IMG/VR virus record: IMGVR_UViG_3300009129_000041 | Coordinates: 1 to 37,814 of that record | Length of the DNA: 37,814 nucleotides | Reading direction: 5' to 3' (one strand) | Origin: a virus | In this document: one piece after another, positions 19,365 through 37,814 of the stretch | Layout: each line of letters starts with the position of its first letter | How positions within the stretch are numbered: position 1 is the first letter of the stretch | Translations under genes and position numbers: made by a program | The notes under the pieces: model-generated | Seen by the model: the letters and a program-made list of their open reading frames with translations, nothing else | Told to the model about the DNA's origin: nothing | The model's database searches: none

Positions 19365-19566
19365 GCCTTTTAGAGAGTTTATTGATGTATTCTTCTGTTA
19401 CGTTAATACTTTCCAGTATTTGAGCTAATCGTTTTTCTGAAAGCTTTCTATCGCCCTTTAGCATTTGCTGAAGGTACTGCTTGGAGATCCCCAGATTTTC
19501 AGCGACATCCTTTTGCTGGATATCTTTCTTTAGCATTGCTACGCGCAGTGCAAACCCTATATTCAT
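19354..19566 (-). CDS. Cro/CI-type helix-turn-helix protein (70 aa)
   Basis: XRE-family DNA-binding domain: LKKDIQQKDVAENLGISKQY with the recognition helix at about 28-37 (SKQYLQQMLKG), followed by KLSEKRLAQILESINV. At 70 residues it is a single domain, like Cro. It lies one base after another DNA-binding protein, and its 3' end carries a promoter, so it may tune the nin-region genes. No divergent partner promoter is present, so this is not a classical immunity region. Confidence 0.85.
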   Translation of the reverse strand: MNIGFALRVAMLKKDIQQKDVAENLGISKQYLQQMLKGDRKLSEKRLAQILESINVTEEYINKLSKRLDM

Positions 19567-22884: not shown

Positions 22885-23355
22885 TTATGCGACTCCTTTC
22901 TTTGGCCTCATAGAATCAATATGCAGCTCTCTTTCTAAAACCTTAACCCAATCACTGTTTGGCCACCTTCTTTGGCATTGCGCTATATTAATCCTTATTT
23001 GTTTTTCTCCGAGCTGGTAAACAGGGCCGCACATTTTTTTGTGTATCTTGCGAGCTAGCTCTTCGCCTTCTTTCGTATACTCATGAGATTCTGCTGGAGA
23101 TTGATAATCATCCCTTTTCTTTGCTGGGCAAAATTTAAGCAATTGATTTAATTTAGGGAAGTAATCAAAATTTTCCCTACACCTTTGAAACCCACTCTCG
23201 ACTTGAGCTTTTGTTAAATAGCTTATGCTTTCGTAATACCTAGCCATAAACTTGCGCTTGTTAATTTCTCTCTCGTTATCGTTATCGCCAACAAATCTTT
23301 TGCTATGAAAAGCTATTTCATCATCCATAACTTCTTTAAATTCTTTCTTATCCAT
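22885..23355 (-). CDS. Probable replicative-helicase loader/interactor
   Basis: 156 residues. The N-terminal half, FMARYYESISYLTKAQVESG through FQRCRENFDYFPKLNQLL, follows the layout of phage helicase-loader/G39P-type domains (helical, with an F-P-K-L pattern before the last helix). The C-terminal part is basic (KIHKKMCGPVYQLGEKQIR). Placement after the DUF6291-like replication protein fits an initiator plus loader pair (like lambda O and P). No ATPase motif, so it would act without ATP. The family match is by eye. Confidence 0.65.
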   Translation of the reverse strand: MDKKEFKEVMDDEIAFHSKRFVGDNDNEREINKRKFMARYYESISYLTKAQVESGFQRCRENFDYFPKLNQLLKFCPAKKRDDYQSPAESHEYTKEGEELARKIHKKMCGPVYQLGEKQIRINIAQCQRRWPNSDWVKVLERELHIDSMRPKKGVA

Positions 23356-23981
23356 TAGAACGGTTCCCCTGATTCGTTTTTAAATGATTCTGTTTTTAAC
23401 TTAAGCCACCCGGCCTCAAACCCTCTCCAACCTCTAAACACACATTCTTCCAAGCACTCATCAACCGTATATCCCATGCCCTCAGCTTTTGTTAGCTCTT
23501 TACCCATTCGGTTAATTACAGTTTGGGTAACATTAGCCTTCAATCTGGTTCTTAGTTTTTTCCAGTCGGTTAGGATTTGATCAGAAGGAATATTAGGCCA
23601 TGATTTAAAATCGAGCTTAGGCGAGACAGATCTTATATTTTTATTACCATTCTTATTTTTATTCTTATTCTTATTCTTATTATCATTATCTGCTAAGTTT
23701 GCTTTGCTTTGCTTTGCTTTGCTAGCATTTGCTACCTTTTGCTTACCCCCCTTGGAGCCGGCTAAAGCTCTAGCCTCACAAGTTTTTTTATACTTTTCAT
23801 CATCTCTTATGAATTGATTTTTGAATGGTGAAAATGCTATTTTTACTAGTGCGCTTAATTCTATTTCAGAGCCATCTTGGTAGGCTTTTATAGCTTTAAA
23901 TAGCTGTCCCGCCTGCTCATCAGTTAGCTCATCTAAAATAGCTAAGCTATCAATGTGGATTAGAAACGACTTCTTGTTCAA
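23355..23981 (-). CDS. DUF6291-like replication protein with repeat-encoded linker
   Basis: Residues 1-75 (MNKKSFLIHIDSLAILDEL, DEQAGQLFKAIKAYQDG, SPFKNQFIRDDEKYKK) match the DUF6291 layout found in phage replication initiators. Residues ~85-115 are low complexity (AKQSKANLADNDNKNKNKNK). Residues ~130-205 form a C-terminal helical domain (ILTDWKKLRTRLKAN... CVFRGWRGFEAGWLK). I chose TTG 23981: AAGGAG lies eight bases upstream, while the TTG at 23987 is only two bases from it. The linker is encoded by tandem repeats prone to slippage. A structured leader and promoter precede it. Confidence 0.75.
   Translation of the reverse strand: MNKKSFLIHIDSLAILDELTDEQAGQLFKAIKAYQDGSEIELSALVKIAFSPFKNQFIRDDEKYKKTCEARALAGSKGGKQKVANASKAKQSKANLADNDNKNKNKNKNKNGNKNIRSVSPKLDFKSWPNIPSDQILTDWKKLRTRLKANVTQTVINRMGKELTKAEGMGYTVDECLEECVFRGWRGFEAGWLKLKTESFKNESGEPF
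23649..23722 (-). repeat. Simple-sequence repeats inside the replication gene
   Basis: On the plus strand there are five perfect copies of TTTGC at 23698-23722 and, 20 bases away, five copies (one imperfect) of ATTCTT at 23649-23678. The hexamer changes only the number of Asn-Lys pairs. The pentamer is not a multiple of three, so gain or loss of one unit would shift the reading frame of the replication protein. Confidence 0.92.
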
Positions 23982-23987
23982 TGTCAA

Positions 23988-24069
23988 AACTCCTTTGGTG
24001 ATCCGATTTCGGTGACAATTCCGAAACAGGGCGACCAGTGCGATCTAGGGCGGATACGAAATCGAATCC
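23988..24069 (-). promoter_or_regulatory. Structured leader with two competing helices ahead of the replication gene
   Basis: GATTCGATTTCG (24067-24056) can pair with CGAAATCGGATC (24011-24000), 12 bp with one G-T. Alternatively TTTCGG (24026-24021) pairs with CCGAAA (24012-24007) as a tight 6-bp hairpin with an 8-nt loop. Both use the same CGAAA strand and end close to the Shine-Dalgarno AAGGAG, so only one can form. A third hairpin (AGGC/GCCT) lies near 24103-24118. This is the layout of a cis-regulatory RNA. The inverted repeat could instead be part of a replication origin. Confidence 0.6.
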
Positions 24070-24123
24070 CAAAAGAGTCTATTGCATATCCCGTTATTTA
24101 GGCTTGTCACGGCCTGAGTTAGT

Positions 24124-24152
24124 ATTATAACAACCCTGATTTTTATTTTAAA
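24124..24152 (-). promoter_or_regulatory. Probable extended -10 promoter for the replication genes
   Basis: TGTTATAAT at 24124-24132 is a full extended -10 element. The -35 position 17 bp upstream reads TTTAAA, weak, as is common with extended -10 promoters. Transcription would begin near 24117 and give a ~135-nt leader containing the competing helices. Confidence 0.6.
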
Positions 24153-24652
24153 GGACTGTATGTAACTAGATTAAAGATAGTATATGAAGGGGAGCTAGTG
24201 ACCCAGTAGGACTCGAACCTACAACTTTATAGCTACTTGTTTATATCAGGACATGACCCCCTACATCCACAAGAACACTATTTGCGTCTCCCAATTCCGC
24301 CACAGGCCGACACTCTTCACTAGTATGGAGCACCCTTTACTAACTCCACCACATATACTGACTATTGAGGCTAGATAATAGACTTAGGAGATTGGTTCCT
24401 GCCCGTTTCAGGTTGCATCCTTCACTGGATGGGGACGCCCCGTTGTTTAAACCGGATATGACCGGACGCCCTAAATTAACCAATCTATTAAATCTACTAT
24501 CTTTAAACCTGCTTAGGTGATTGAGCTAGAGGGGAATCGAACCCCCTTATTACCGTAATCTCAATACTGGACATTCCATTTACATACATGCGTCAAACCA
24601 TTTAACCAGTAAAGATACTAACTCAATCATTTAAACAGGCTTATTAAAGATT

Positions 24653-24731
24653 TGGTCTGAGTGGTAGGATTTGAACCTACGACCGCCTGCTTTCAAAGCA
24701 GCTACGCGCTACCAAACTGCGCCACACTCAG
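24653..24731 (-). tRNA. tRNA with apparent UGA anticodon, non-canonical, CCA encoded
   Basis: Acceptor CTGAGTG/CACTCAG (7 bp), discriminator A and a genomic CCA; D-stem GCGC/GCGC with AGTTTGGTA loop; T-arm GTAGG-TTCAAAT-CCTAC. The anticodon stem CTGC/GCAG with loop TTTGAAA gives anticodon UGA (serine codon UCA). But the variable region is short (class I), there are two extra bases before the anticodon stem, and one G-G mismatch, so true serine identity is doubtful. A 7-bp inverted repeat (AAAGATT/AATCTTT) flanks it. It lies just beyond the terminator-like element. Confidence 0.75.
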
Positions 24732-24756
24732 ATAATCTTTATTGCTTGAAGGGGTA

Positions 24757-24852
24757 ATAAAAAAGCCCTTATCGCAAGCCTCAGTTGGAATGGGCACTTA
24801 GTGACTAGTGATGATACAACTAAGGCTTCTGAAACTTGCCATAAAGGCTCTT
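24757..24852 (-). terminator. Long branched hairpin ending in a U-run, possibly pseudoknotted
   Basis: AAGAGCCTTTAT...GCAAG pairs with CTTGC...ATAAGGGCTTTTTT (about 14 bp, one G-G mismatch). Inside, GCCTTAGTTG pairs with CAACTGAGGC (10 bp, one G-T), and a CACT/AGTG hairpin caps it. Six T follow the last strand, as in an intrinsic terminator. Just upstream, CTAGTGAT (24853-24860) is complementary over 8 bp to ATCACTAG in the apical part (24805-24812), which would make a pseudoknot. It ends the MarR operon and starts the RNA region. Confidence 0.75.
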
Positions 24853-24893
24853 ATCACTAGATTTTACTAAATACTGATTCCACTCAGCAATAT

Positions 24894-25139
24894 CTATTTT
24901 ACTTTATCCTCCTTAGATTTCAACTCTTTTTCTTTTGTATCAAGAAAATTTGCTAAAAACCTAAACCAAACTGTATAACTTACTTTTTCGCCATAAAGTA
25001 AGCGTTGCACAAAACTAACATCGCAATGAGTTAACTTAAATTGCCATAAGATATTGTCACAAACCTGTAGTTGCTCGATAGTTTCACAGCTATTTATATA
25101 TCTTACGATAACTAAGCCGTCTTTAACTATTTGATCCAT
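24894..25139 (-). CDS. Hypothetical protein (81 aa)
   Basis: MDQIVKDGLVIVRYINSCET, then LQVCDNILWQFKLTHCDVSF and a Lys-rich end. TAATG overlap with the upstream gene; the last gene before the structured RNA region. No family recognised. Confidence 0.65.
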   Translation of the reverse strand: MDQIVKDGLVIVRYINSCETIEQLQVCDNILWQFKLTHCDVSFVQRLLYGEKVSYTVWFRFLANFLDTKEKELKSKEDKVK

Positions 25140-26469: not shown

Positions 26470-26591
26470 TATTTTAATTTACTCCATAACCAATCCATTA
26501 AAAGAAACCCATATCCGCCTATAACAATCACTACAACAAACAAAAACATTGCTAATACCGATATTAAACCTTTAATTAAAAATTCTATCAT
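26469..26591 (-). CDS. Small membrane protein (40 aa)
   Basis: MIEFLIKGLISVLAMFLFVV and on: a single hydrophobic span of ~25 residues, ending MDWLWSKLK. ATGA overlap with the sigma-like gene upstream and TAATG with the next, a pair of tiny membrane proteins in tandem. Function unknown. Confidence 0.6.
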   Translation of the reverse strand: MIEFLIKGLISVLAMFLFVVVIVIGGYGFLLMDWLWSKLK

Positions 26592-27094
26592 AAGTAATTT
26601 GCCACTCTGTCTCTTAAGTTATTTCTATGCCTAATAGAATTACTAATATCAATCCCCTTCCTTTTGGAATACCGCTTAGATGCTTCTGCAGGCCCATAAA
26701 AATAGATTTCTTTAAAGTAGTTCGAGTCGAATGATTTCTTTGATAATTCCTCTAAGTAAACCATATCCTCTATTAATCCGGGATTTCCAATATCGTATTC
26801 AAGATCGTTGTTTATTGCACAAACATCAAAATACTTAATGTTCTTTTTCTTTCCATCCACTGTCTTGGTTGTCTTTCTATATATTGCGTCATTTATCTGC
26901 GTTCTTATATGCTTGTTAGCATAACTTATAAACTTACCCCTTTTCTCAACATAGGTTTTACTTGCCAAAACAATACCCAGCATCGCTTCTTGATATAAAT
27001 CCATGTATTGAAGACCAGCTTTACCTCCGGTATAAGTGTATTTAGATGCGTACTCTTTAGCTAAAGGAGTCCAATCCATAGGATTTATTTTCAT
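26588..27094 (-). CDS. Sigma70 region-2-like protein (168 aa)
   Basis: Residues ~29-75 (QYMDLYQEAMLGIVLASKTY, then RGKFISYANKHIRTQINDAI) align by eye with sigma70 region 2: DL-QEG-GL--A---F--RG-F-TYA---I---I. This part contacts core polymerase and melts the -10 element. The C-terminal third (APAEASKRYSKRKGIDISNS-like, then RHRNNLRDRVANYL) is basic and could be a residual DNA-binding helix-turn-helix. A classical region 4 is not evident. It may redirect host polymerase to phage promoters or act as a decoy for core. It is followed directly by two tiny membrane genes. Confidence 0.7.
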   Translation of the reverse strand: MKINPMDWTPLAKEYASKYTYTGGKAGLQYMDLYQEAMLGIVLASKTYVEKRGKFISYANKHIRTQINDAIYRKTTKTVDGKKKNIKYFDVCAINNDLEYDIGNPGLIEDMVYLEELSKKSFDSNYFKEIYFYGPAEASKRYSKRKGIDISNSIRHRNNLRDRVANYL

Positions 27095-36393: not shown

Positions 36394-37811
36394 GAGAAAG
36401 TCACCTCTAACTTACTTAAAGCGGTTCTTCCGTCAGCCACTATTCTGAACTTAAAATTAAACTCATCCCTTATATAACCTATTCTCCTAGCAATAAACCG
36501 AGTGTTGTAATTATTTATTCTACTAATAGGAATGACAGCCTCTTGACTAAATACTACGCCGTCATAACTAATCGAAAAGAAACAATCTACATCACCAGTA
36601 GAAAAACCAGGAAGCGAATCAAGTTCAATTTTATCAATGCTTTGACGCTCCAGCTGTACGATCGGAGTATAAAATATCTCTTCAATTTGGTCGCCATACT
36701 GTAAATTAGTTGTATTGTCTAACTGGCCAATACGCGAATCCAGCCTATCGCCGTAAATCCACTTAGAGATACGAGGGTCATATACCCCGTTAATAGCGCG
36801 CCAAGGGTTGTCGCCTGCTATATCGGTCTTAACAAGAGTCCAAGCCATTCTAGTGCCGGCTATCTTGGCTACTGTGTGACTGTAAAGTAACGTATGTCGC
36901 GGCAGGTGAATAATAACAAACTTCTCTCTATCCTCTACCCGGGCTTCCATGACTAAGCCAGCCAATTCAGAATCAGTGTATTCAGCTAGTATCTTATCGA
37001 TTTCGCGGGTCGCTATAGTTTGCTCTGTGCCTCCGGCCAATATATGAACTGATGGAGATTCTTCTTTCCGATTGCCTACTATAAATATTTGACCATCCAT
37101 CTCACACTTGGCGTGAGTACCCACTATTCCAACCTTAACCGCTTTACCTTCAATTCTTCTGAATCTAAATAAAAATGCACCAGATGAGGTTGTGGTTGGT
37201 TGGTCGACAAACCATTCAGTAGTAAATCGATTAAATACGACAACTTGATTTTGCTTGTTCTTTAACAATCCAACCGTTCTATCAGGTGAGAATTCCGAAG
37301 TAGCGAATGCCTGAGGGTCAATCGCTTGTTCATTAGTTGAGTCAGTATGGTAAAGCGTTTCGCCGTCAGTAAAAAAATACACGCCGTTAATCCATACGGC
37401 GTCAATAGGACTGCCTAAGTCTGGGTCGAGAACTTCAGTTAAAGTTGACCCATCATAAAGCCAAAATCGACCACTAGAAACAATACCTTGGGTTAAAAAT
37501 GAATAAGGTAGTGAGGCTTGAGATGTGCCAGGTATTACACCAATAGTATTGGTGGAACCATCTGAATTAACTTCGACTAGTCTGTCACCAGATATTCTTA
37601 ATTGTGTTCTTTGTCTAGAATTGTAAATAGCGCCTCGATCAGTACCTTCAGCAGCACCAAACTCGCTTAACCCTGGATGTGAAAGCGTGTAACCTTCATC
37701 GCCTTTAATGTTTCTAGGGACGATTGTTCGGTTAACCATTAGTTGGTCACGGTAATCAACATTATCTGCTGATTTATCACCTAATGAAATTGGGATCTGT
37801 ACTTTTGGCAT
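36390..37811 (-). CDS. Packaged-DNA stabilisation protein / tail nozzle, P22 gp10 family
   Basis: In P22, gp10 forms the nozzle below the gp4 adaptor and seals the DNA in. The 473-aa sequence follows the family from the start: VDYRDQLMVNRTIVPRNIKG, then GYTLSHPGLSEFGAAEGTDR and GAIYNSRQRTQLRISGDRLV. It continues with beta-propeller blades (AVWINGVYFFTDGETLYHTD, NRFTTEWFVDQPT). P22 gp10 is 472 aa. Its start lies in the 119-bp end repeat. Confidence 0.9.
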   Translation of the reverse strand: MPKVQIPISLGDKSADNVDYRDQLMVNRTIVPRNIKGDEGYTLSHPGLSEFGAAEGTDRGAIYNSRQRTQLRISGDRLVEVNSDGSTNTIGVIPGTSQASLPYSFLTQGIVSSGRFWLYDGSTLTEVLDPDLGSPIDAVWINGVYFFTDGETLYHTDSTNEQAIDPQAFATSEFSPDRTVGLLKNKQNQVVVFNRFTTEWFVDQPTTTSSGAFLFRFRRIEGKAVKVGIVGTHAKCEMDGQIFIVGNRKEESPSVHILAGGTEQTIATREIDKILAEYTDSELAGLVMEARVEDREKFVIIHLPRHTLLYSHTVAKIAGTRMAWTLVKTDIAGDNPWRAINGVYDPRISKWIYGDRLDSRIGQLDNTTNLQYGDQIEEIFYTPIVQLERQSIDKIELDSLPGFSTGDVDCFFSISYDGVVFSQEAVIPISRINNYNTRFIARRIGYIRDEFNFKFRIVADGRTALSKLEVTFS

Positions 37812-37814
37812 TTA
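37696..37814. repeat. 119-bp direct terminal repeat (same as 1-119)
   Basis: Second copy of the end repeat described at 1-119; it contains the first 38 codons of the DNA-stabilisation gene and the stop codon of the next gene (37812-37814). Confidence 0.97.

Follow-up and report, generated by a model that had tools for sequence, protein, structure and literature searches.

What does a phage encode in a long stretch that holds no genes? In the virus record IMGVR_UViG_3300009129_000041, such a stretch is bounded by a small gene upstream (24894-25139) and an O-like gene (23355-23987). A first-pass annotation of the window (the whole stretch of DNA that was analysed, 37,814 nucleotides) had proposed that it forms one large, ornate RNA of the kind of the phage RNAs GOLLD and ROOL. 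We analyzed the folding, the parts, and the relatives of this region.

Genomic setting and folding of the gene-free region

The record carried a perfect 119-bp terminal direct repeat (1-119 and 37696-37814), and contig L077 read across the junction of this repeat, which together indicate a complete circular assembly of ~37.7 kb. The window phage, a P22-like podovirus, encodes a portal, a terminase, and a head-binding tail protein domain, and its replication/recombination region is lambda-like (O-like/DUF6291, Erf, Gam-like, SSB, NinB, and NinG). All of its main genes are on the minus strand. A 168-aa protein encoded at 26588-27094 (minus strand) weakly matched phrog_351, a phage RNA polymerase sigma-factor family. 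No close relatives of the gene-free region were found, including via neighbouring genes; the portal relatives of the phage lacked the RNA region, and no portal relative was found in bacterial genomes. In one portal relative (L073, record G010), a row of tRNA genes of the three class II isotypes (Leu, Tyr, and Ser), all with low scores, was found at 1787-2052.

All the helices that the first-pass annotation had named on the transcribed strand were present, and the region folded well beyond dinucleotide-preserving shuffles, with z from about -4.5 to -7 (z = -4.55 for 24195-24640 and z = -7.2 for 24185-24870, both minus strand). Among its parts, the fold z was -5.7 for module B, -5.5 for module C, -4.5 for a terminator-like hairpin, -3.3 for module A, and only -2.2 for module D. 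The annotation had overlooked that every block is a tRNA-like unit of its own, enclosed by a separate outer helix. Closure of the entire region by the 7-mer CTAGTGA, which it had suggested, is not needed.

One large ornate RNA of ~650 nt, either of the GOLLD/ROOL kind or new, would agree with the global fold (z = -7.2), with the adjoining tRNA, and with some long-range complementarity. However, an Rfam search returned no match to GOLLD, ROOL, or other large-RNA families, whether at the gathering threshold or at E ≤ 10, and the single match over threshold in the region was a tRNA at 24656-24731. The modules are self-closed, module A is a complete tRNA that encodes its CCA and would be excised, and the terminator-like hairpin separates off the 5' flank. 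A single large RNA is therefore highly improbable. What stands of the earlier proposal is a non-coding RNA region with an unusual degree of structure next to a tRNA, and the best reading is that this region is not one giant RNA and is a modular array of tRNA-shaped RNAs. The annotation was also right that there is more here than ordinary tRNAs and spacers: against the Rfam tRNA model RF00005 (threshold 29), module D scored 25.9 bits, module B matched as a fragment with 10.3, and module C was unmatched.

Many inverted repeats beside the DUF6291/O-like gene could instead function at the DNA level, for example as protein-binding sites or as an origin of replication close to this gene. We consider this extremely improbable, because the repeats form tRNA arms that contain T-loops and RNA-specific G-U pairs, no GC-skew switch was found at the region, and the members of the tRNA-Leu-like family described below occur in varied gene contexts. 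A tmRNA in the region was rejected as well, as the permuted tmRNA match was at chance level (E = 7) and the relaxed ARAGORN tmRNA calls were not credible.

Modules A, B, and C and the flanks of the array

Between the upstream gene and the array, a branched terminator-like hairpin ending in a U-run was found at 24764-24856 (minus strand), as had been noticed at the 5' end of the region. None of 500 shuffles matched its minimum free energy, and a simple terminator scan did not list it. The hairpin is followed by module A (24653-24731, minus strand), a tRNA with encoded CCA and a full cloverleaf that scored 56.9 bits with RF00005. ARAGORN called it Ser(tga), and its best BLAST matches were phage tRNA-Pro. 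Given this proline-type body together with a UGA anticodon and a short variable loop, module A may not work as a serine tRNA. In the sequence immediately before it, no good promoter was identified.

Module B (24504-24643, minus strand) is tRNA-like and is built on the previously noticed 12-bp helix 24618-24629/24518-24529, which is of acceptor type and contains one G-U pair. This helix is extended by a 12-bp outer helix (24632-24643/24504-24515). The module has a perfect T-arm at 24530-24546 (GGGGGTTCGATTCCCCT); a TTCRANY T-arm is present in no fewer than three of the modules (A, B, and D). A canonical anticodon arm was absent from module B. In a permissive Rfam search, it scored 27.5 bits with the tRNA-Sec model, which is below the family cut-off. 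Module C (24373-24502, minus strand) consists of a 9-bp stem (24478-24486/24389-24397) closing several hairpins, and it is extended by a 14-bp outer helix (24489-24502/24373-24386). It carried no tRNA sequence signature and no T-arm, and had no relative in Rfam or BLAST searches.

The outer duplexes of B and C had energies of -14.6 and -15.6 kcal/mol, respectively, which none of 1000 shuffles reached in either case. Both were stronger than the flank duplex of any of the 61 phage tRNAs used as controls (mean -3.3, strongest -11.1 kcal/mol). In A, B, and C, an internal loop lies between the inner and outer helices with CC on its 3' side, at the place of C74C75 of a tRNA, and in module D a CC also follows an alternative inner helix. 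This placement would be consistent with processing of the modules as tRNA precursors. When modules B, C, and D and the 5'-UTR region described below were compared with phages by BLAST, the only matches were tRNA fragments or due to chance. Among the modules and this 5'-UTR, notable similarity was found only for A/D, which share the T-arm, and D/5'-UTR; that of B/D was not significant.

Downstream of the array, a promoter-like site with an extended -10 (TTTAAA-17-TGTTATAAT; 24124-24152, minus strand) was identified by consensus match only and would serve the next operon. The DUF6291/O-like gene has a long 5'-UTR hairpin at 23993-24075 (minus strand; fold z = -4.0), with a 3' strand overlapping the gene's Shine-Dalgarno region. 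A 20-nt stretch of this hairpin resembled the D-arm of module D (uncorrected p = 0.005, with 15 comparisons made), and the 5' UTR also contained 11 nt resembling a T-loop.

Module D and a tRNA-Leu-like family without an anticodon arm

Four relatives by the Erf gene (L166, L189, L133, and L135) contained tRNA-like elements that ARAGORN did not call, with an acceptor, a D-arm, and a T-arm, and with the anticodon arm replaced. Two such elements were in tandem in L166. Outer helices as in the window were found in L133 (18 bp) and L135 (10 bp), while most family members had none. We searched for further members with a pattern of a Leu D-arm, a gap of 48-78 nt, which is too long for tRNA-Leu, and a T-arm. 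Canonical tRNA-Leu has 33-44 nt at this place. The pattern demanded two inner T-stem pairs and placed no constraint on the outer ones, on U48, or on the acceptor. It recovered at least 120 stretches in IMG/VR and 59 stretches in one-per-species bacterial and archaeal genomes. Some of the genome matches, in clusters around L333 and L319, were rejected as ordinary tRNA-Leu with internal duplications. Four class II tRNAs with a Leu-type D-arm and an apparent GGA (serine) anticodon were seen in gammaproteobacterial MAGs/genomes (L321, L342, L355, and L357).

The features left free by the pattern were kept in most elements. Among the matches listed, 93 of 111 unique, unselected viral elements had all seven acceptor pairs, 103 had all five T-stem pairs, and 105 had U48. 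The acceptors of the selected elements comprised 82 distinct strand pairs with a mean of 6.88 of 7 pairs, compared to 3.62 when the strands were re-dealt. In alignment A1, covariation was 0.674 versus 0.176 after shuffling; the 100% pairing in this alignment results from selection, and the unselected counts are those of the 111 elements. Position 73, the discriminator, was A in 67 of 88 elements, which the pattern did not impose. In the core of a tRNA, A15 is the partner of U48, and the retention of U48 suggests that the elbow is kept. A canonical anticodon arm with a 7-nt loop was found at chance level (8 of 96 elements vs 6.1 expected by shuffling), in a count that left out tRNA-Leu with internal duplications and canonical class II tRNAs.

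The elements are easily overlooked, as ARAGORN called only 13 of 175 and the Rfam tRNA model labelled several as plain tRNA. They occurred in varied gene contexts, usually in the orientation of the neighbouring genes, and no neighbour gene recurred; the commonest, an Erf-like protein identified by eye, was found in 6 of 118. CAA/CTA 3' ends were rejected as a family hallmark, because the canonical tRNAs of these loci have the same 3' ends as the elements. Genes for tmRNA were seen in two viral contigs (L200, 5468-5866; L210, 2992-3317), a few hundred bases from anticodon-less elements. A cultured phage, Bacteroides phage BS-TP2, carries an example in a stretch without annotation between positions 19523 and 19677 of its record. 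This element lies between DUF2303 and NinG, within an SSB-NinB-NinG-helicase-O-like block whose gene content resembles that found in the window phage. No description of the family was found in Rfam or in the open-access papers searched, and the family is widespread in phages and apparently undescribed.

The inserts that replace the anticodon end were 48-78 nt long and mostly unrelated between phages (98 of 139 were singletons). For 76 non-redundant inserts, the best crossing helix pair scored 13.88 versus 12.00 ± 0.27, and the best nested helix pair 14.08 versus 12.53 ± 0.23, and in both cases none of 100 dinucleotide shuffles did as well. The inserts are hypervariable yet structured, and often compatible with a pseudoknot. 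In the best crossing pair, the 3' strand ended at most 4 nt from U48 in 64% vs 41%. Compensatory changes were found by eye in L200/L289 (GACCA/UGGUC to GACCC/GGGUC) and in L234/L255 (GUAAC/GUUAC to GCAAC/GUUGC). A stem at the base of the insert was not enriched, which argues against a simple intron or a merely lengthened anticodon stem. In a subgroup (L214 596-718, L334, and L360), the insert contained a second conserved domain (UUGAGA..C.GGAUG.UAAA), in which helices showed compensatory changes.

Module D fits this family. Its core (24198-24309, minus strand) has a Leu D-arm (GGCGGAATTGGGAGACGC) with A15-U48, a 64-nt insert, which exceeds the gap of tRNA-Leu, U48 as the U before the T-stem, and a T-arm at 24206-24222. 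The covariance model R1, which was built from 53 viral members and none from the window, scored module D at 58.1 bits (E = 6.3e-14), well above A (20.3 bits) and B (19.7 bits, with no match to the D-arm and no Leu-type D-arm); C was unmatched. The RF00005 score of D stayed below the cut-off. The acceptor of D has six of seven pairs, several of them G-U, and position 73 is C rather than A. The insert of D was no more structured than shuffles (p 0.35-0.47). By sequence, module D is a member of the tRNA-Leu-like family, if a weak one, whereas B and C are only structurally analogous: they are grouped with D by position and module architecture and not by sequence. The relaxed ARAGORN calls were inconsistent, and the one for D, Leu(aag) with a 36-nt intron, is doubtful.

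The first-pass annotation had overlooked a competing outer closure of module D, which extends the module to 24179-24359 (minus strand). In this closure, AGTATATG and GGAGTTAGT (24352-24359 and 24339-24347) would pair with ACTAGCTCC and CATATACT (24191-24199 and 24179-24186), corresponding to inverted repeat I3 (21 nt, 81% complementary). The flank duplex had an energy of -8.8 kcal/mol, which 37 of 1000 shuffles reached, and the z of -2.2 refers to D with this closure. The 3' strand of D is contested by the GGAGTTAGT helix, by the tRNA-Leu acceptor, and by the CTAGTGA/TCACTAG helix (24317-24323/24195-24201), whose presence had been recognized before.

Modules B, C, and D might also be decaying tRNA genes, in which T-arms and acceptors persist as remnants and the flanking helices stem from earlier duplications. 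The mismatch between body and anticodon in module A, the weak acceptor of D and its discriminator other than A, the lack of relatives of B and C, and the tRNA remnants present in other phage tRNA arrays all fit decay. It would not be expected to leave perfect or near-perfect helices of 12, 9, 12, and 14 bp in B and C with z near -5.5, or flank duplexes outside the range of all 61 control tRNAs, and the family of D is under clear structural selection. Decay appears unlikely.

A proposed tRNA-derived scaffold and its known counterparts

We favor, with a probability of about 0.6, the reading that 24179-24740 is a row of tRNA-derived modules, with A near-canonical and B, C, and D self-enclosed, and that the family of D carries a phage-specific insert on a tRNA-Leu body as a processed scaffold. 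The flanking helix of each of B, C, and D would allow it to fold independently. The family of D keeps the acceptor stem, D-arm, T-arm, and apparently the elbow of tRNA-Leu, with the anticodon and variable arms swapped for a structured, phage-specific insert. In the most probable mechanism, host enzymes would recognize the tRNA body and excise the RNA from the operon transcript, with RNase P at the 5' end, trimming at the 3' end, and CCA addition, and the body may then keep the excised RNA stable while the insert performs a phage-specific job, such as protein or RNA binding. Sequence comparison establishes the conserved core without an anticodon arm, the structured hypervariable inserts, and the membership of D; an effector function of the tRNA-scaffolded RNA is suggested by these features, and from their architecture B and C may do the same job as D. 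More tentatively, and with the odds somewhat against it, phages across many hosts may rely on tRNA as a natural scaffold, in which the tRNA-Leu elbow would serve in processing, in stability, and perhaps in charging, with the fast-changing and often pseudoknotted insert domain as an effector against the host or its defences, and the window phage would carry a tandem array of such RNAs.

Another explanation for the family is a leucylated tRNA mimic, which LeuRS would charge although it does not decode, and which would either provide Leu-RNA to a reaction outside the ribosome or tie up LeuRS, EF-Tu, or defences that target tRNA. According to a review (PMC9976931), A15-U48, G18G19, and A20a are required for leucylation, and the anticodon arm of tRNA-Leu is dispensable for charging and essential for editing. 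The features retained by the family include those reported as required, and U48 (105/111 among the matches listed) and discriminator A (67/88) were not imposed by the pattern. In contrast, the Leu-type D-arm was imposed by the search and other modules have different D-arms (L133, L189 12017-12129, and window B), D of the window has C at position 73, and charging leaves the structured, phage-specific inserts unexplained. We consider a charged mimic to be quite unlikely.

The family shares with tRNA-Leu the acceptor, the D-arm with A14/A15/G18/G19/A20a, U48, and the T-arm, and differs from it by the 48-78-nt insert and the lack of an anticodon arm. The tRNA-like domain of tmRNA also combines an acceptor and a T-arm without an anticodon, with pseudoknots in the remainder of the molecule. 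Unlike tmRNA, the family has no Rfam tmRNA match and no tag reading frame, and it has a proper D-stem and a length of about 110 nt. GOLLD and ROOL resemble the window region as phage RNAs near tRNA genes (PMC12286853), and the region is distinguished from them by its modular architecture and the lack of an Rfam match. The pseudo-tRNA tRNA-Other of Bacillus cereus is likewise tRNA-like, with a role outside translation and a tie to a mobile element (PMC3399842), but it has an anticodon and is a single bacterial pseudo-tRNA rather than a phage family.

The nearest known analogue is species 1 RNA of phage T4 (RNAC, rnaC), a small stable RNA of the phage tRNA cluster that has a T-arm, acceptor-like ends, and a long arm at the place of the anticodon arm (PMC3014915, PMC9697503). 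It differs from the family by lacking the Leu-type D-arm and U48, and it scored 24.9 bits with R1, about the score of T4 tRNA-Ser. RNAC and RNAD are stable tRNA-cluster RNAs without a known role (PMC3014915, PMC9697503). With more than 100 sequences, clear covariation, and a member in a cultured phage, the tRNA-Leu-like family makes the purpose of such non-decoding phage tRNA-like RNAs directly testable, and it would be a natural counterpart of the tRNA scaffolds used in biotechnology.
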